The notes below the pieces were generated by a model. It saw only the letters and a list, made by a program, of their open reading frames with translations. It had not been told where the DNA came from and did no database searches. The position numbers were made by a program, and so were the translations under genes. This document shows positions 8,430 to 40,402 of a DNA stretch of 41,586 nucleotides, piece by piece (the first letter of the stretch is position 1; each line of letters starts with the position of its first letter). The stretch comes from a virus, in the IMG/VR virus record IMGVR_UViG_3300050821_007357, positions 1 to 41,586 of that record; one strand, 5' to 3'.

Positions 8430-8719
8430 GCGGCCTAGGGCGCACGACGCGGATGCCGGAGTGCCGCTGCCCGTTTTGCGGCCACAAGCTCGACGGGGTG
8501 ACGTCTGGCCCGGGCCAAGACCCGGACGCTACGCCTCGGCCAGGCGACGTGACGTACTGCATCCAGTGCGCGGGGGTGCTGGTATTCGAGGGCGATCCTC
8601 TCAGCGTGCGCAAGGCGGCGGCCGAGGAGGTGCGGGAGATCATGGCGGAGCTGCCGGCGGCTTCGGTGCTGGCGACGGCGCTCGCCATGCTTCATCACGG
8701 ACGGGAACGGCCGCAATGA
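8426..8719 (+). CDS. Zinc-ribbon-like protein (97 aa)
   Basis: The start is GTG 8426, overlapping the previous stop as GTGA. Four cysteines form a zinc-ribbon pattern: CPFCGHKL near residues 15-22 (with an extra C two residues before) and YCIQCAGV near 44-51. The rest is helical (PLSVRKAAAEEVREIMAELP). Zinc ribbons of this kind usually bind nucleic acid or mediate protein contacts. It overlaps the following gene by ATGA. No specific function is known to me. Confidence 0.7.
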   Translation: MSGLGRTTRMPECRCPFCGHKLDGVTSGPGQDPDATPRPGDVTYCIQCAGVLVFEGDPLSVRKAAAEEVREIMAELPAASVLATALAMLHHGRERPQ

Positions 8720-9375
8720 CCGACCTGGCGGCGGCCATCCGCTTCGTTCCGTTGCCGTCGACCATGATCTCGCTGCCGATCGACCGGCGCGGCTTCCCGG
8801 TGCCGTGGTTCGTGAGCTGGGAGGATGGCGAGCCGGATTTCCGGGTGATCGGCCCGGGCAAGCTGGTGCGCGCCGTGCGCGAGGGGCGCTGCTGGGTCTG
8901 CGGCGGCAAGATCGGGCGGGTCAAGGTCTCGGTGATCGGGCCGATGTGCGCGATCAACCGCGTCACCAGCGAGCCGGCGTCGCACCCGGCGTGCGCCAGG
9001 TACGCGGCGCAGACGTGCCCCTTCCTCGCTAACCCTCGGATGCGCCGCAACGAGAAGGACTTGCCCGAGCAGCGGCGCGAAGCGCCCGGTATCCACCTGG
9101 ATCGCAACCCCGGCGTGATGGCGCTGTGGGCGAGCCTGCGGCCGAGCAAGCCGTTCCGGGCGGAGATCGGCATGGCCGGCGTGCTGTTCCAGCTCGGGCC
9201 GCTGCACGGCATCGAGTGGTGGGCGCGCGGGCGCCAGGCCAGCCGCGCCGAGGTGATGGAGTCGATCGAGAGCGGCCTGCCGAGCCTGCGCGAGGTCGCC
9301 GAGCTGGAGGGCAACGGCGCGGTTGAGGCGCTGGCGAGCGCCACGGTGAACGCCATGCGGCTGTTGCCGGCATGA
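8716..9375 (+). CDS. Conserved Cys-rich phage protein (219 aa)
   Basis: ATG 8716 in an ATGA overlap. After a PWFVSW box (about 35-40) comes a Cys cluster: RCWVCGGKIG (about 60-69), IGPMCAINRVTSEPASHPAC (about 80-99) and AAQTCPFLANPRMRRN. The pattern CxxC...C...HxxC...C suggests a structural zinc site. Proteins with the same FxVIGPMCxxNR...EPxSHxxCA...CPFL spacing recur in phages and bacteria as an uncharacterised family; this is recalled, not searched. The C-terminal third is helical (SRAEVMESIESGLPSLREVA). Role unknown. Its place in the accessory run suggests an anti-host or regulatory function rather than a structural one. Confidence 0.75.
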   Translation: MTDLAAAIRFVPLPSTMISLPIDRRGFPVPWFVSWEDGEPDFRVIGPGKLVRAVREGRCWVCGGKIGRVKVSVIGPMCAINRVTSEPASHPACARYAAQTCPFLANPRMRRNEKDLPEQRREAPGIHLDRNPGVMALWASLRPSKPFRAEIGMAGVLFQLGPLHGIEWWARGRQASRAEVMESIESGLPSLREVAELEGNGAVEALASATVNAMRLLPA

Positions 9376-33631: not shown

Positions 33632-33729
33632 GTCATTGATTTTATGGTGCCGGTTGAGGGGCTCGAACCCCCGCCCTTCTGATTACAAATCAGCGGCACG
33701 CCAGAGGGAAGTCCTATAAAATCAATGAC
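33632..33729. other. attP: attP region with 14-bp inverted repeat flanking a tRNA-derived core
   Basis: GTCATTGATTTTAT (33632-33645) and ATAAAATCAATGAC (33716-33729) form a perfect 14-bp inverted repeat that brackets the tRNA-Thr 3' fragment. It lies just downstream of the integrase stop. The position, the tRNA core and the flanking octamers together mark it as the phage attachment site. Confidence 0.8.
33645..33694 (-). other. 3' half of a tRNA-Thr(TGT) gene (attP core identity block)
   Basis: Read on the minus strand: CTGATTTGTAATCAG (anticodon arm, anticodon TGT), variable AAGGGC, T-arm GGGGGTTCGAGCCCCTC, acceptor end AACCGGC, discriminator A and encoded CCA. The 5' half (acceptor and D-arm, TAGCTCAGT...) is missing upstream, so this is not a working tRNA gene. 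It is the part that would restore the host tRNA 3' end after integration. The sequence resembles alphaproteobacterial tRNA-Thr(TGT). Confidence 0.85.
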
Positions 33730-33822: not shown

Positions 33823-35139
33823 TCAGCCTGCGGCGGTGAGTTTCGGCGCCCGCTTGGCGTGGCGCAGCAGCCTCGCTTCGAGCTGGGCGTCGGTGTCGTC
33901 TTGGTCGTCCTGGTCGATCAGGTGGTAAAACTTCTTGTGCAAGGCGACGGCGGTTTCGGGGGTCTGCAGGGCGCGGGCCGCAACCTCATGCGTCTTGAGC
34001 TTGCCGACGTTGTAGAGCCGGGTGATCCCGGTGGGGCGCAAATCCTGAAAGGTCTTGCCGAGCACGGCGGGGCCGGCCTCGGCGCTGGCGATCTCGCGGA
34101 CCAGGGCGAAGACGTGGCGGAAGTAGTCAGGCTTCCAGAAGTCGAGGCCGCTGTCGGCTTCGGAGCGGATCACACAAGGCGGGCGCAGCTCGTCGGGGCC
34201 GGTCCAACGGGCGGCGATCGTGGCGAGCCTGGCGCGGCCCTCCGGCATGATGCGCGGATTGCCCTGCACGTTGGTCTTGACGCGCGTGGTGGCGGCGCGG
34301 TGGCGATCGTCGATTTGCGCCCACGTCAGGGAGAGAATGTCGACCTGTGACCAGGTGAGATCGAGCGCGAGGATGATGGCGTCGGCGACGGAGTCGAAAC
34401 CGATCCACTCGGCCGCCGCGATCAGCGCCTTGATCTCGTGGGGTTGCCAGACGACGAGGCGAGCGTCGGGTTTGACGACTCGGATGCTGGCGCAGGGGTT
34501 GGTGAGCAGCAGGTTTCGCTTCTTCTGGACCCACGAAAACCAAGCCTTCGCCGCGACGATCGTGGCGGCGGCGACGGCGGCGCCCTTGGTGGCAAAGAGG
34601 CGGGTGTAGGCGTCGGCCGAATAGTTGCGCTTGCCGCTGCCGGGCGTCGGTGCGGCCAGTAGCTCGATGTCCTGGGCGCGGATCGCCGCCGGCGGGACGC
34701 CGCGAACCTCGGCGATGGTGGCGACGTACTGCGCGAGATAGGTGCGGTAGTGGATCACCGTCTTGGGCTTGATCGGCTTGAAGTGCGGAACGGGGTCGGT
34801 GAGGTAGAGGTCGATCAGCCCGCCAATCGTGCGGTCATCGCGGGCAACTGGCCGAGGCGCGCCCGCTGCAGCGGCGCCGGCCGGGGCGAACGCGGCCATC
34901 CATTCGGGGAGCGGTTCGCCGAGCTTCGCGGCGGCGATGGCGTCGTTGATCTCGTTGATTTTGTCGACGGCCTGGCCCTGGCTCATCCACTCGCCATCGG
35001 CGTTGCGCAGTGCGTAGCCGCGCCAGCCAGCCAGACGCTGCTTGGGTTGCGGACGCCACATCGGGTGTCCGTCGCGCCACTCGCCGTTGGTCGGCAGGGG
35101 GTTCTTGCTGCGCTTGGGGCTGGGCTTCTTCGTGGTCAT
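33823..35139 (-). CDS. int: Tyrosine-recombinase integrase (438 aa)
   Basis: ATG 35139-35137 with AGGAG upstream (minus strand CCAGGAGCACGTAATG). The frame is open to 35598, but that extension is low-quality and overlaps the xis-like gene. Likely N-terminal arm-binding region, a core-binding SAM-like domain (about 115-230; KTVIHYRTYLAQYVATIAEV), then the catalytic domain. Box II is seen as TFQDLRPTGITRLYNVG (R368) and the nucleophile candidate is Y405 in KKFYHL. K288 (RVKTN) fits the beta-hairpin lysine. Box I reads ALDLTWSQVDILSLTW where TGxRxxE/D is expected, and box II has Q before DLR instead of H. It is next to attP, so an integrase role is clear even if the active site is unusual. Confidence 0.8.
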   Translation of the reverse strand: MTTKKPSPKRSKNPLPTNGEWRDGHPMWRPQPKQRLAGWRGYALRNADGEWMSQGQAVDKINEINDAIAAAKLGEPLPEWMAAFAPAGAAAAGAPRPVARDDRTIGGLIDLYLTDPVPHFKPIKPKTVIHYRTYLAQYVATIAEVRGVPPAAIRAQDIELLAAPTPGSGKRNYSADAYTRLFATKGAAVAAATIVAAKAWFSWVQKKRNLLLTNPCASIRVVKPDARLVVWQPHEIKALIAAAEWIGFDSVADAIILALDLTWSQVDILSLTWAQIDDRHRAATTRVKTNVQGNPRIMPEGRARLATIAARWTGPDELRPPCVIRSEADSGLDFWKPDYFRHVFALVREIASAEAGPAVLGKTFQDLRPTGITRLYNVGKLKTHEVAARALQTPETAVALHKKFYHLIDQDDQDDTDAQLEARLLRHAKRAPKLTAAG

Positions 35140-35218: not shown

Positions 35219-35515
35219 CTAGCGGGCGAGGCGATCCAGGTTGCGCTCGGCCTGGCGCCGCCGATCCTCGGGCGCGGTCGCGTCGGTGCTGCGCGGCCGG
35301 CCGCGCGCGGGGGGCGGCGGCGGGGGTTCGCGGCGGCGGATGCGCCAGGCTTCGATCGCCTCGGCTTCCCAGCGCAGGCCGACCAGCGGCAGCGGGAAAC
35401 CGTACTCGCGCACCCACCCGCGCCAGGAGCGGCGGACGTGATCGGGCGTGTATTCGAGGATTTTGGCGACGTCTTCGATCCGAAGCATCCGTTTGCTGGT
35501 GATGGGCTCGGGCAT
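35219..35515 (-). CDS. Excisionase/AlpA-like HTH protein (98 aa)
   Basis: ATG 35515-35513 (MPEPITSKRMLRIEDVAKIL). The winged-helix MerR/excisionase core MLRIEDVAKILEYTPDHVRR, WRGWVREYGFPLPLVGLRWE and AEAIEAWRIRRRE is the usual pattern: a helix-turn-helix, then a wing with GLRW. The C-terminal tail is Pro/Arg-rich and ends in a helix. Encoded 80 bp upstream of the integrase in the same direction, it probably controls the direction of recombination (excision factor) and/or int expression. Confidence 0.75.
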   Translation of the reverse strand: MPEPITSKRMLRIEDVAKILEYTPDHVRRSWRGWVREYGFPLPLVGLRWEAEAIEAWRIRRREPPPPPPARGRPRSTDATAPEDRRRQAERNLDRLAR

Positions 35516-35524
35516 GGGGTGATC

Positions 35525-35710
35525 TCAACGCATGAAAAGGTGAAGCGCCGGGCCGGCGATCGAGGCGGCGGCCAGGCAGAGGCAGAGCAGAGTGACAAGG
35601 ACGAATGAGAGCCGGTCTTGGACGGGCGAGGCCCGCCGCCGGCGTGGGCGAAATTCCCGGATCAGTGGCCCGGTCGCGGCCGGGGGTGTTTCAGGGTCGA
35701 TATTCTGCAT
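35525..35710 (-). CDS. Small single-pass membrane protein (61 aa)
   Basis: Start at ATG 35710-35708 with GAGGACGACC just upstream. An ATG at 35779 would add 23 residues but lacks a good ribosome site. A basic cytoplasmic N-terminus (IREFRPRRRRASPVQDRLSF) is followed by one membrane helix (FVLVTLLCLCLAAASIAGPA) near the C-terminus. First gene of the lysogeny operon, ahead of xis and int. It may be a superinfection-exclusion or lysogenic-conversion protein, which is inference only. Confidence 0.6.
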   Translation of the reverse strand: MQNIDPETPPAATGPLIREFRPRRRRASPVQDRLSFVLVTLLCLCLAAASIAGPALHLFMR

Positions 35711-35802
35711 GGTCGTCCTCGGGTGAAATACGGGGAACCGTGCGCCAACTAGGGAGACTCCGGGCGCGTTGTGTGTCAAGCAACCAGTTAAGCACTGTCG
35801 GG

Positions 35803-35818
35803 TGTTTCACGTGAAACA
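35803..35818. promoter_or_regulatory. parS: parS-type site (TGTTTCACGTGAAACA)
   Basis: Perfect 16-bp palindrome equal to the near-universal chromosomal parS consensus TGTTnCACGTGnAACA recognised by ParB. With this base composition a chance occurrence in 41.6 kb is very unlikely (of order one in 100,000 or less by simple multiplication). I see no parB or parA gene in the genome, so host ParB would be the reader. Confidence 0.85.
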
Positions 35819-35918
35819 TAGTAAGGGGAAATGCGGGCTGATCGTGGTTTCTAAGTAGGGACGCGGGAATAGCCGGGATAATTGGTGAATAGTGGGGGCC
35901 GCGGCACCGAAGACTGCG

Positions 35919-35927
35919 TTATCCACA
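35919..35927 (+). promoter_or_regulatory. Perfect DnaA box (TTATCCACA)
   Basis: Exact match to the strong R1-type DnaA box, 101 bp from the parS site and 160 bp upstream of the DnaA-IV-like gene. It is the only perfect copy I noticed. It suggests recruitment of host DnaA, or of the phage protein encoded next door, to a replication origin. Confidence 0.7.
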
Positions 35928-36016
35928 GAGGTTAGCGCAGATCGGGCCTTGTCAATTGGATGGCGTAGGGGTTGATTGATCGCTTCCCTTTAGGGGAGGG
36001 ACTTATGTCTGCTCAA

Positions 36017-36071
36017 CTAAGTCGCGATTTTTGTAACTTAAGCGACATCGAGCGTCGGGATAAACCTTAAG
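36017..36071. repeat. CTTAAG / TAAGTCG repeats upstream of the initiator-like gene
   Basis: CTAAGTCGCG (36017-36026), CTTAAGCGAC (36037-36046) and CTTAAGTCGG (36066-36075) lie 20-29 bp apart just before GTG 36087. They may be operators or short iterons for the adjacent HTH protein. A possible promoter is TTAAGC, 17 nt, TAAACC within this block. Confidence 0.4.
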
Positions 36072-36086
36072 TCGGGGGCGACGGCC

Positions 36087-36617
36087 GTGCCAAAGCGGTA
36101 CGAGCCCAGCCGGCAGGCGGTGGAAACGGCCTGGTGGGCGGCGGTCCTGGTGACGGCGCGAGCTTACGCGGTGAACCGCAGGGTGCTCGGCGCGACGGGC
36201 GGCGGCGGGCGCGGCCCGATAACCCCCCCGGACTACTGGCGAGCCCGCAAGGTGGCGATCTACCTGGCGGTGCTGATCTGCGACTGCAGCTTTGCGGCGC
36301 TGGCGCGGGCGATCGGGATGCACCGCGACACCGTGACGACGCAGTGCGACGAGATTCGCGAGCTGCTGGAAGGCGAGCCGCTGCTCGCTAAGCGCATGGA
36401 CATCATGGAGCGGGACGGTCGCAACTTGGCGCTGGGCTCGCTGGCCGCGTTTCACGCCACCGTGGCGGCTGACATGGCGATGATGGAGGCGTGGAAATCC
36501 GATCGCCTGCCGACGCGCAAGCCGCCGCCGCCGCGTCAGATGCGGGGCCAGTACCGACAAAAAAAGGGGGGGGTTTTTGACGATCACGAAAACTTTATTC
36601 CGGGTCCGGCGGAATGA
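36087..36617 (+). CDS. DnaA domain-IV-like DNA-binding protein, putative replication initiator or regulator (176 aa)
   Basis: GTG 36087 (MPKRYEPSRQAVETAWWAAV) preceded by GGGGGCGAC. The segment PDYWRARKVAIYLAVLICDC, SFAALARAIGMHRDTVTTQC, DEIRELLEGEPLLAKRMDIM matches the DnaA C-terminal domain: RxxAxYLaxxxxxxSfxxxaraxGxxRxTVxxxxxxiE, in which HRDTVT corresponds to the DHTTV signature helix that reads DnaA boxes. There is no AAA+ domain, so it can bind but not melt DNA by itself. First gene of the replication operon, next to a perfect DnaA box. Near its 3' end it carries the run A7-G8-T5 (36559-36578). The role could be origin binding or transcriptional control. Confidence 0.65.
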   Translation: MPKRYEPSRQAVETAWWAAVLVTARAYAVNRRVLGATGGGGRGPITPPDYWRARKVAIYLAVLICDCSFAALARAIGMHRDTVTTQCDEIRELLEGEPLLAKRMDIMERDGRNLALGSLAAFHATVAADMAMMEAWKSDRLPTRKPPPPRQMRGQYRQKKGGVFDDHENFIPGPAE

Positions 36618-37726
36618 GCGATCGCGCACCTTTGCCGTACGAGCCGGCGGACGTGCGCAGGCGGCTGCAGGATCGGCTGCACGATCTGCTGCCTCGGCTC
36701 GGCATCGACGACCGGCTGCGGGGCAAGGTGCTGCTGACGCGCAACCCGCGCCGGCCGGAGAACACCCGCAAAGGCAACTTCGCGATCTGGCTGACCGGCG
36801 AGGGCGCCGGGAGCTGGAAGGACTACGGCCTGGCCGGGGACACGCGCGGCGACGTGTTCCAACTGATCGAGTACCTGGCGAAGCTGAATAGCTGGATCGA
36901 CAGCTATTGGTGGGCGCTCGACTTCCTGAACCTGCAACGCGGCCAGGTGCGGTCGGCCGACCAGGCGAAGCTGGATCGGGAGCGGGTCGAGGCCGAGCGC
37001 AAGGCGCGGGAGATGAAGCGCCAGGCGCAGGACGAGCGGCGGTCGCGGTCGCTGTTCAGCTCCTGGCTCAAGCTGCCGGAGTCGATCGCGGACACGCCCG
37101 TCGAGACCTACCTGCGCGACGCGCGGGGGATACCGATGGAGCGGCTGGGCTCGCCGAAGTTCCGGCTGGCCGCGCTGCGCTACGCGGTGCGGCTGGAGCA
37201 CGTCGACCAGGACACGGGCGAGGTGACGTACTGGCCGGCGATGGTCGCGGCGATGACGCTGGGGCTCACCGTCACTGGCCTGCACCGCACTTGGCTGGCG
37301 CCGGACGGGCGCGGCAAGGCCCCGGTGCACATGCCGAAGAAGATGGTCGGCCGCACCAGCGGCGCGGCGATCCGGCTGACGACCGGGCCGAGCGGCCAGA
37401 ACCCGTCGCGCGCGGCGCGCAAGGGGATCGTCGGGCCGCTGGCGATCGGCGAGGGGATCGAGACCAGCCTCACGGTCGCCGCCGCCGTGCCGGAGTGGCG
37501 CGTGTGGGCGGCCGGATCGGTGTCGCACATGGGGCTGCTGGCGTGGCCGGCGTGCGCCGACCGGGTGATCCTGCTGCGCGACAACGACTGGAAGCCGGAG
37601 GCGCGTGAGGCGTTCGACCGCGTGGCCGAACACTGGCGGCGCCAGGCGCGCGGCCGGCGGGTCGACGTGGCGGCGAGCGAGGTCGGCAAGGACTTCAACG
37701 ACTGGCTCATCAAGGGAGCGGCGTGA
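36614..37726 (+). CDS. TOPRIM-domain DNA primase (370 aa)
   Basis: ATG 36614 in an ATGA overlap. The N-terminal region (about 45-90; KGNFAIWLTGEGAGSWKDYG, DVFQLIEYLAKLN) resembles the part of P4/T7-type phage primases that precedes the catalytic core. A charged coiled helix (about 115-145) follows. The TOPRIM fold is at about 270-360: LAIGEGIETSLTVAAA with the catalytic Glu, VILLRDND with the DxD metal site, then RRVDVAASEVGKDFNDWL. A classic N-terminal CxxC zinc site is not visible. It would lay RNA primers at the phage origin with the helicase encoded three genes downstream. Confidence 0.83.
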   Translation: MSDRAPLPYEPADVRRRLQDRLHDLLPRLGIDDRLRGKVLLTRNPRRPENTRKGNFAIWLTGEGAGSWKDYGLAGDTRGDVFQLIEYLAKLNSWIDSYWWALDFLNLQRGQVRSADQAKLDRERVEAERKAREMKRQAQDERRSRSLFSSWLKLPESIADTPVETYLRDARGIPMERLGSPKFRLAALRYAVRLEHVDQDTGEVTYWPAMVAAMTLGLTVTGLHRTWLAPDGRGKAPVHMPKKMVGRTSGAAIRLTTGPSGQNPSRAARKGIVGPLAIGEGIETSLTVAAAVPEWRVWAAGSVSHMGLLAWPACADRVILLRDNDWKPEAREAFDRVAEHWRRQARGRRVDVAASEVGKDFNDWLIKGAA

Positions 37727-37905
37727 TGGCGATCGAGCTTCAAAACCCGCCGGCGACGCACGTGTGGACCGGCGAGAAGATGGTGAAGCGGATCGACAAG
37801 CTGACGCTGGAGGAGGCGCGCGAGGTGATCGTGCGCCTGTGCGACGATCTGCAGGAGGCCCGCGACGCGCTGCTGGCCGAGCTGCGCAAGCAGGGGCACG
37901 ACTGA
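37726..37905 (+). CDS. Small helical hypothetical protein (59 aa)
   Basis: ATG 37726 in a TGATG junction behind AAGGGAG. An in-frame GTG at 37723 is the alternative. MAIELQNPPATHVWTGEKMV, then a helix KLTLEEAREVIVRLCDDLQE with ARDALLAELRKQGHD. Likely a small helical adaptor. It overlaps the next start (TGATG). Unknown function. Confidence 0.65.
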   Translation: MAIELQNPPATHVWTGEKMVKRIDKLTLEEAREVIVRLCDDLQEARDALLAELRKQGHD

Positions 37906-38474
37906 TGCGCAAGCGGATCGCCGAGGCGAACAAGCGAGCCCGCGAAGCCCGGCGCCGGCGCCGCCAGAGCCTCGCCCTCAAGCGTCGCTGGGCCGATCCC
38001 GAGCTGCGCGACAAGTGGGTCTCGGCGATGCGGATCAACGCCGCCGACCCGGAGGTGCTGGCGCGCCGGCGCGAGGGCATGAACACGCCCGAGGCGCAGG
38101 CCAAGCGCAAGGCGAGCTGGGATCGGCGGCTCATGCGCCGCTGGCGGCTGCTGCCGGACGAGCTGGCGATGTTCCGCGTGCTGCGGGCCAAGCTGAACAG
38201 CCCCGGCCTGGCGGCGGCGGCGATCAAGCGCTCACGCAAGCAACAGGAGGCGAGAGATGAAGGTGACGGAGGACGACGCGCTGTCGCTCATGTTCCTGCT
38301 GGCCGAGGCGCCGGGGGTGTGGCGGCTGACGCCCGCCTGCTTTCGGCCGAATCCGCGGTGCCTCGATCAGGAGGCGCGCGGGCTGCTGGAGATCGTCGCG
38401 ACCGGCGAGCAGACCCACCTGCGGCTGACGCCCGAAGGCCGCCGCTCGCTGGATGCCTACCTCGGGACGTGTAG
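37905..38474 (+). CDS. Basic repeat protein with out-of-frame C-terminal extension (189 aa)
   Basis: ATG 37905. Residues 1-117 are strongly basic with repeats: LKRRWADPELRDKWVSAMRI, NAADPEVLARRREGMNTPEA, KASWDRRLMRRW. These resemble the DNA-binding repeats (NUMOD3-like) found with phage endonucleases, here without a nuclease. From about residue 118 the frame overlaps the gene at 38257-38484 and its codon use becomes random, so the tail (72 residues) appears to be extension past a lost stop. The functional protein is probably the first 117 residues or so. Confidence 0.6.
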   Translation: MRKRIAEANKRAREARRRRRQSLALKRRWADPELRDKWVSAMRINAADPEVLARRREGMNTPEAQAKRKASWDRRLMRRWRLLPDELAMFRVLRAKLNSPGLAAAAIKRSRKQQEARDEGDGGRRAVAHVPAGRGAGGVAADARLLSAESAVPRSGGARAAGDRRDRRADPPAADARRPPLAGCLPRDV

Positions 38475-38484
38475 CGATGCCTGA
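38257..38484 (+). CDS. Hypothetical protein (75 aa)
   Basis: ATG 38257 behind AGGAGGCGAGAG, a very good Shine-Dalgarno. MKVTEDDALSLMFLLAEAPG, then TPACFRPNPRCLDQEARGLL, EIVATGEQTHLRLTPEGRRS and LDAYLGTCSDA. The helical TPEGRRSLDAYL end looks like the wing and helix of a winged-helix domain, so it may be a small DNA-binding protein. Typical codon use shows this is the true coding frame in the overlap. The stop overlaps the helicase start by eight bases. Confidence 0.7.
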   Translation: MKVTEDDALSLMFLLAEAPGVWRLTPACFRPNPRCLDQEARGLLEIVATGEQTHLRLTPEGRRSLDAYLGTCSDA

Positions 38485-40402
38485 CCGCATCGAGGAGATC
38501 GGCCAGGCGCTGCGCTCCTTCGATGAGGAACAGCAGGCCAGCCTGCGCCAGACGGGGAAGAACGACCCGCCCCCCGGGGCGCCGCTGCGCTACCAGCACG
38601 GCCGCGATCCGAACGACGTGGTGATGATCGAGCCCGGCCAGTGGGAGCCCGACGGCTGGGCCGACCAACGCACCGGCCTGCCGCCAGGCTGTCCGGTGAT
38701 CCCGCTCGGGAAGGAAGGGCCGACCTGTTACTTCCTCGACACGCTGGGCGCTGTGTACGAGCTGCACGCTCAGTCTTCGGGCAAGGGTCCGATCGAGTCG
38801 ATGTTCGGCGGGCGCACGCGCTACCTCGAATGGGCCTGGCCGCGCTGGAGCCAGCCGCGCCGGGTCAAGCGCACGATCGAGAACGCCGAGGGCGAGACGA
38901 TCGAGGAGTTCATCACGGTGCCCTCGCGCGTGATCGGCTGGGAGGCCGACCGGGCGCGGCAAGACCTGGTGAACGCCTGCGCCTACACCGGCGTCTATAG
39001 CTACGCCGAGCTGGTGCGGGGGCGCGGCGCCTGGCGCGCGGCGGACGGGTCGCTGATCTACCACGCCGGCGACCGGGTGCTGGCCGGCGGGCGCTGGCGT
39101 GATCCGGGCGAGATCGACGGGATGATCTACCCGCGCCGGCCGCCCATCGGCCGACCGAGCGCCAGGCCGCAGCCGGCCGGGCCAGGCAGCGCCGGCGACG
39201 AGCTGTTCGAGATGCTGCAATCGTTCAATTGGGACCGGCCGGACTTGGACGCGCGCCTGGTGCTGGGCTGGCTGATGACGGCGAAGATCGGCGGGGCTTT
39301 GCCGAGGCGGCCGGTGCTGTTCGTGCACGGCGGAGAAGGATCTGGAAAATCCACGTTACACGAGCTGATGCGCGGGGCCATGAACGGCGCGCTGATCGCC
39401 ACGGCCGAGACCAGCCAGGCGGGGATTTACCACCACCTGAAACAGGACTCGGTGGCGATCCTGATCGACGAGCTGGAGGCCAAGGACGACACCCGCGCGA
39501 TCCACAAAATCCTGACGCTCGCGCGCATCGCCTACAGCGGCGACAAGATGCACCGGGGCGGCAAGGATGGCGTCGGCCAGGAGTTCACCCTGATGTCGAG
39601 CTTCATGGCGTCGGCGGTCTCCAAGCCGGCGACCGAGGCGCAGGACGACTCGCGGATGGCGGTCGTCATGCTGCGCGAGCGCGAGGCCGCCGGCGCGAAG
39701 CTGGAGATCAAGCCGGCCTGGATCGACGCGACCGGCCGCCACCTGCTGCGCCGGCTGTTCGATTGGTGGCCGCGCTGGGCCGAGCTGGTGGGCGTGATCC
39801 GCGCCGCGCTGATCGAGGTCGGCCACAACGACCGATCCGCCGACACCTTCGCGCCCCTGGCCGCCGGCTGTCACGCCGCGCTGCGCGACGACATGCCGGA
39901 GCCCGGCGAGCTGGTCGACTGGCAACGCTGGCTGAACCCGGCGCTGCTGGATGAGATCGCGAACCGCGAACGCACCTGGCGGCGCTGCCTGCTGCAACTG
40001 CTGAACGCGGCGCCGGACGCCTGGCGGCAGTACACGTCGAAGACCGTGGGCGGGGTGCTGACCGAGCTGCGCGACGGGGTGATGAACGCCAAGGAGGCGG
40101 ACACGCGGTTGCAGCAGATCGGGCTGTCGCTGAGCTGGCCCAACGAGCACGGCCAGGACTACGAGTCGGCGCGCCTGTTCGTGCCGAGCAATCACCCGGC
40201 GGTGCAGGCGCTGTTCGAGGGCACGTCATGGGCGGGCAGCGCGGGGTCGCCGGGGCCGTGGGCCGGCGTGCTGCGCCAGGCGCCGCGCGAGCTGTGGGAG
40301 CGCGGCGTCAGCGGCAAGGGTTTGGACAAGAAGGCCAAGGGGTTGTTGATTGACGTCGCGCGCGCGCTCGACGCGTCCGACACCCCGGCCGAGCGGGCAT
40401 GA
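38477..40402 (+). CDS. Replicative helicase, superfamily-3/P4-like AAA+ NTPase (641 aa)
   Basis: ATG 38477. The first 240 residues have no recognised domain (a PLRYQHGRDPNDVVMIEPGQ block and later FGGRTRYLEWAWPRW). The NTPase follows: Walker A GGEGSGKST (285-293; K291), ETSQAGIYHHLKQDSVAILI with Walker B ILIDELEA (about 328-335), then SGDKMHRGGKDG and VVMLR (Arg-finger region). Such helicases in temperate phages and satellites unwind origin DNA as hexamers. With the TOPRIM primase it makes the replication pair. Codons around the P-loop end unusually often in A/T. The C-terminal part (about 440-641) is unassigned. Confidence 0.8.
   Translation: MPDRIEEIGQALRSFDEEQQASLRQTGKNDPPPGAPLRYQHGRDPNDVVMIEPGQWEPDGWADQRTGLPPGCPVIPLGKEGPTCYFLDTLGAVYELHAQSSGKGPIESMFGGRTRYLEWAWPRWSQPRRVKRTIENAEGETIEEFITVPSRVIGWEADRARQDLVNACAYTGVYSYAELVRGRGAWRAADGSLIYHAGDRVLAGGRWRDPGEIDGMIYPRRPPIGRPSARPQPAGPGSAGDELFEMLQSFNWDRPDLDARLVLGWLMTAKIGGALPRRPVLFVHGGEGSGKSTLHELMRGAMNGALIATAETSQAGIYHHLKQDSVAILIDELEAKDDTRAIHKILTLARIAYSGDKMHRGGKDGVGQEFTLMSSFMASAVSKPATEAQDDSRMAVVMLREREAAGAKLEIKPAWIDATGRHLLRRLFDWWPRWAELVGVIRAALIEVGHNDRSADTFAPLAAGCHAALRDDMPEPGELVDWQRWLNPALLDEIANRERTWRRCLLQLLNAAPDAWRQYTSKTVGGVLTELRDGVMNAKEADTRLQQIGLSLSWPNEHGQDYESARLFVPSNHPAVQALFEGTSWAGSAGSPGPWAGVLRQAPRELWERGVSGKGLDKKAKGLLIDVARALDASDTPAERA

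Follow-up and report, generated by a model that had tools for sequence, protein, structure and literature searches.

An orphan chromosomal-type parS site in the gap that separates leftward xis/int genes from rightward replication genes in a temperate phage, and its probable loading by host ParB

The stretch of DNA analysed here in full (the window) is the IMG/VR record IMGVR_UViG_3300050821_007357, positions 1 to 41,586, a 41.6 kb temperate-phage record. Because structural genes could be identified in it (head-tail connector, major head protein, tail protein and an endolysin domain), we assign it to a tailed phage; its description as a closed genome in the first-pass annotation rests on an 18-bp terminal repeat. 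The features around the site are as follows.

33645–33697, minus strand: probable attP, read by eye as the 3' half of a tRNA-Thr(TGT)-like sequence
33823–35139, minus strand: putative tyrosine integrase, divergent, assigned by sequence motifs
35219–35515, minus strand: excisionase-like helix-turn-helix protein (PHROG 66, E 4e-5)
35525–35712, minus strand: small putative membrane protein, first leftward gene
35713–36086, no strand: longest non-coding gap, 374 bp, holding parS (limits inferred from a rough gene set)
35803–35818, no strand: exact chromosomal-type parS, TGTTTCACGTGAAACA, a sequence common as the host form in Caulobacteraceae
35919–35927, plus strand: perfect DnaA box, TTATCCACA, the only copy in the window (0.025 expected)
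36087–36617, plus strand: DnaA-domain-IV-like helix-turn-helix protein (weak; Bac_DnaA_C E 0.0037, under the curated cut-off)
36614–37726, plus strand: Toprim primase (Toprim_3 E 1e-14; PHROG 510 DNA primase E 1e-35)
38453–40402, plus strand: primase-helicase-type ATPase (PHROG 21086 E 5e-62; PHROG 35358 DNA primase E 3e-35)

The gap at 35713–36086, which separates the leftward xis/int genes from the rightward replication genes, is AT-rich for this genome (55% G+C versus 70% in the window overall) and contains the palindrome, as expected from its earlier assignment to non-coding DNA. When the whole window was scanned with the 16-bp palindrome, TGTTTCACGTGAAACA was the sole match at ≤3 mismatches, with 0.01 matches expected from dinucleotide shuffles; first- or second-order Markov models predict ~6e-7 exact copies, which bears out the claim of an exact palindrome with negligible chance probability. 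By sequence the site is of the chromosomal type, the 16-bp palindrome being the parS consensus of the host group. It does not lie near parAB or oriC, a placement typical of such sites on chromosomes and not defining of them. Searches with ParB_N (PF02195), HTH_ParB (PF17762) and ParA-type AAA_31 (PF13614), identical to those that gave matches in control genomes, returned no domain match in the record, in agreement with the partition gene being reported as missing, and on this count the window is not a P1-like phage-plasmid, which has its own ParA and ParB.

On the leftward side, the ATG start of the small membrane-like protein lies ~91 bp from parS, and no CI gene was identified beside the site. 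The 'int' gene said to be adjacent stands as a putative integrase by its motifs and setting; it has no Pfam, PHROGs or PDB family match, and gave a short match (E 0.005) to the integrase-like protein of a related prophage, L130. The tRNA-Thr-like half, in which ARAGORN found no complete tRNA, is flanked by 13-bp inverted repeats (TCATTGATTTTAT / ATAAAATCAATGA, at 33633–33645 and 33716–33728), and judging from this arrangement the segment 33633–33728 is the probable attP. On the rightward side, the DnaA-domain-IV-like protein has a syntenic homologue in L123 (E 0.0016), and the DnaA box shares the gap with parS, upstream of the gene for this protein. No convincing iteron array was found around 35500–38500; the gap might contain a replication origin.

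Relatives were located using the primase-helicase-type ATPase; a search from a single sequence yielded one locus, and a nucleotide search of the window region against the phage collection gave no match. All relatives in named genomes belong to Caulobacteraceae, Parvularcula or an unplaced alphaproteobacterial MAG, so that the host of the window is probably of Caulobacteraceae type, and among 390 genomes of the family to which Caulobacter sp. BK020 belongs, 26 carry relatives of varying closeness. Five unrelated phage stretches (the window, L130, L132, L123 and the L122/L204/L206 group) have parS or a close variant with xis/int on one side and the CI repressor, or the position where one would be expected, on the other. 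L122, L204 and L206 were counted as one lineage because they share ~80% flanking identity over ~370 bp. This repressor-to-xis/int position is kept in L122, L123, L130, L132, L204 and L206. L130 has, in order, an integrase-like gene, an xis-like gene (weak HTH_17 match), parS and, abutting the site with its stop codon, a repressor-like gene, with the integrase and repressor named from sequence and setting, as neither had a Pfam match. In L132 a repressor-like gene and an integrase with Pfam support flank the site, and in L122, L123, L204 and L206 it occupies the same gap, with Pfam-supported S24-type repressors. The L122 and L123 forms differ from the exact site by 2 mismatches and the L204 form by 3; about 0.008 sites at ≤2 mismatches are expected per 15 kb. 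Comparison of the window with L130 gave no DNA match within 1 kb apart from 18 bp around the site, and in the best matches to all fetched loci, including the parS-cluster region of the BK020 host, only the site and a few flanking bases recur. Presence in related phages, proposed in the first-pass annotation as a check, was thus found, and its refuting condition of no conservation in any relative does not hold: unrelated prophage lineages have the site in the same position, with different flanking DNA and different CI operators. It is absent from the close relatives L129, L207 and L208, from L131 and from more distant relatives, and is therefore dispensable.

In three of these relatives the first leftward gene beside the parS-like site encodes a GapR-type nucleoid protein (L122:2110–2379, L204:9208–9489 and L206 near 8718–9365). 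The match to PF10073 has E 6e-32 in L122 and 1e-32 in L204, and the L206 copy was detected by a profile made from these two. One site in L122 ends ~18 bp from the gapR-like start codon. L207 and L209 have GapR-like genes too, there without a parS-like site.

We then compared the site with CI operators, which were identified by motif repetition at the CI–cro gap of each phage. The operator types across these phages are TCTAGAC, GGACnnnTGGTCC and AAAAATACGA. A TCTAGACGTCAAGTCTA-type motif occurs both at the CI–cro gap and beside the parS-like site in L122 and L204, as does GGACnnnTGGTCC in L206 and a AAAAATACGA...TCGTATTTTT motif in L132, so that in all four the CI operator is repeated next to the site, at the leftward promoter. 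The repeated motifs of these four phages are thus other than the parS-like site. Since operators vary among phages while the site persists, the site is not a CI operator, and that reading was rejected.

Sites at ≤1 mismatch were found in 74 of 80 Caulobacteraceae genomes, mostly two to four each, and none were found in the same 80 with a reversed control sequence. Where listed, they mostly form one short cluster, often including the exact window form; such host clusters we take to mark oriC, as is known for the family. G060 and G114, of the Caulobacter family, have 11 and 18 parS sites scattered over many contigs, unlike nearly all others listed. In three of three host genomes (BK020, a Parvularcula MAG and G337), all sites at ≤2 mismatches fall in the chromosomal cluster or at the same prophage spot: BK020 has four clustered within 3.6 kb and a pair spaced 64 bp apart in its prophage (contig 7), with none elsewhere; the Parvularcula MAG has six clustered, one exact in prophage L130 and one in prophage L132, with none elsewhere; and G337 has four clustered and one in a prophage. 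A 2-mismatch site in G052 (C6) was taken as chance, since the genes around it look by eye like housekeeping genes (secA-like and oxidoreductase-like). The form TGTTCCACGTGGAACA also lies, in G098 and G115, at most ~520 bp from other parS sites, and it therefore probably belongs to the native variants of the host.

Exact parS occurs in at least 120 stretches of IMG/VR, compared to 1, 6 and 33 for three control palindromes, which are few and uneven, so that they give a rough enrichment factor. Of the 120 listed parS loci, 17 contain more than one exact site, as against none of the control loci. ParB_N was matched in 5 and absent in 94 of 99 tested parS-bearing records, many of which are fragments, and was absent in 20 of the 25 tested records of at least 40 kb. 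Part of the enrichment reflects shared descent, since 33 listed loci share one terminase large subunit family, and in 13 of the 33 the site precedes that gene by 17 to 135 bp; in many listed loci it adjoins terminase or other structural genes. Because a tyrosine integrase match was found in just 8 of 50 long parS-bearing viral records, the general role of the site probably does not depend on integration, and a role in integration only is disfavoured as a general rule. Sites upstream of the terminase large subunit gene occur in L027, L042, L066, L083, L093, L097, L101, L119 and others, several of them embedded in an 18-bp palindrome, ATGTTTCACGTGAAACAT. Multi-site viral records include L017 and L044, with five exact sites each, and, at ≤2 mismatches, L087 with twelve and L116 with six.

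The reading we favour is that the site is a host-type parS, probably kept by selection so that host ParB loads onto phage DNA. The first-pass annotation had proposed an orphan parS that recruits host ParB; its conservation at the same place in unrelated prophages is observed, and the recruitment itself would follow from sequence identity and this conservation. Because the site has been retained at one position in distantly related viruses, the phage probably borrows the host's own ParB. Host ParB-CTP clamps would load at the phage palindrome and slide over the neighbouring kilobases, reaching the xis/int genes in one direction and the replication genes in the opposite one, much as ParB slides over DNA neighbouring parS (PMC7053999, PMC8367383). 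In the least certain step, the unintegrated phage circle would borrow host ParA, and SMC where ParB loads it, and this borrowed machinery would position the circle and share it out; ParB crowding next to the CI operator, at the leftward promoter, may also damp xis/int expression. The gain to the phage may lie in partition, positioning, SMC loading or local silencing. An integrated prophage has no need of partition, and close relatives do without the site, both of which count against this explanation. So does the harm that extra parS copies can do. In Caulobacter, two strong parS sites on one plasmid are lethal, and ectopic parS is tolerated within ~500 kb around ori, with mid-arm insertions disfavoured (PMC5815017). 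As extra parS can harm a Caulobacter host, a single phage parS would be a plausible compromise.

The position of the site is fixed at the leftward xis/int promoter, and several relatives have a CI operator beside it, which speaks for a local effect there or for placement within the immunity region. The site could then be chiefly transcriptional, host ParB silencing or tuning xis/int and gapR-like genes at the leftward early promoter and coupling the lysogeny switch to ParB, with no partition involved. This we consider rather unlikely as the whole account, and it stays a strong competitor because the place of the site is fixed. It draws on the adjoining second CI operator in L122, L204, L206 and L132, on the ~18 bp between the L122 site and the gapR-like start codon, and on two precedents, in which raised ParB potentiates repression of parS-adjacent promoters in Pseudomonas aeruginosa (PMC5521831) and KorB silences at long range (PMC11790492). 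It fits poorly with the few tyrosine integrases in long parS-bearing records, with the many loci where the site is beside terminase or other structural genes, and with the window itself, where the first leftward start codon is ~91 bp away and no CI gene was found alongside.

Titration is an improbable role for the window site, namely that many parS copies on replicating phage DNA act as a decoy, drawing ParB from the host origin and disturbing chromosome segregation or division. The lethality of a parS plasmid in Caulobacter (PMC5815017) and the five sites in each of L017 and L044 speak for a decoy, but the window is a temperate phage with a single site. We think it highly improbable that the palindrome only resembles parS and serves a phage-encoded regulator, CI or another, as its operator: its location within the immunity region would suit such an operator, and phage operators are often palindromes, yet the separately identified CI operators differ between phages, unrelated phages share the exact host parS, and the window has no ParB-type domain match. 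A functionless scar of captured host DNA, or a chance match, is hardly credible; the patchy presence among relatives would be explained, but not the ~6e-7 exact copies expected, the recurrence of only the site and a few flanking bases across the fetched loci, BK020 host cluster included, or its retention at the same place in unrelated lineages.

Returning to the preferred reading, loading of host ParB on phage DNA would mean that phages directly exploit the chromosome segregation machinery. Tentatively, the orphan host centromere could be a widespread strategy, with many unrelated phages, some without a detected integrase, loading host ParB, and perhaps SMC, via exact chromosomal parS. If so, Caulobacter lysogens, in whose host ParB biochemistry is advanced, would offer a simple test bed for ParB on a foreign replicon. 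Methods that locate oriC from parS clusters are also affected, because an isolated parS outside the cluster may mark a prophage.

Compared with the chromosomal parS of ParABS systems of the Caulobacter and Bacillus type, the 16-bp palindrome is identical, in a form common in Caulobacteraceae chromosomes, but the window site is on a phage, away from parAB/oriC, in single copy and with no ParA or ParB of its own found. We found no literature on orphan host-type parS in phages among open-licence papers. Phage-plasmids with their own partition genes are known, such as P1 and extrachromosomal mycobacteriophage prophages (PMC7157519). As in P1-type phage-plasmids, a centromere site is carried on phage DNA; these, however, encode their own partition proteins, whereas in the window phage no domain of ParA or ParB was found, and it has a probable attP and a putative integrase. 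The parS mimics of SGI1 use the ParABS of the IncC helper plasmid for SGI1 stability (PMC10954446). In sequence and gene content the window resembles SGI1, a mobile element without its own ParB that carries a parS matching the ParB of another replicon, but the partner would be the host chromosome system and not a helper plasmid, and the link was established by experiment for SGI1 and is inferred for the phage. SGI1 is the nearest experimental precedent for the phage parS.
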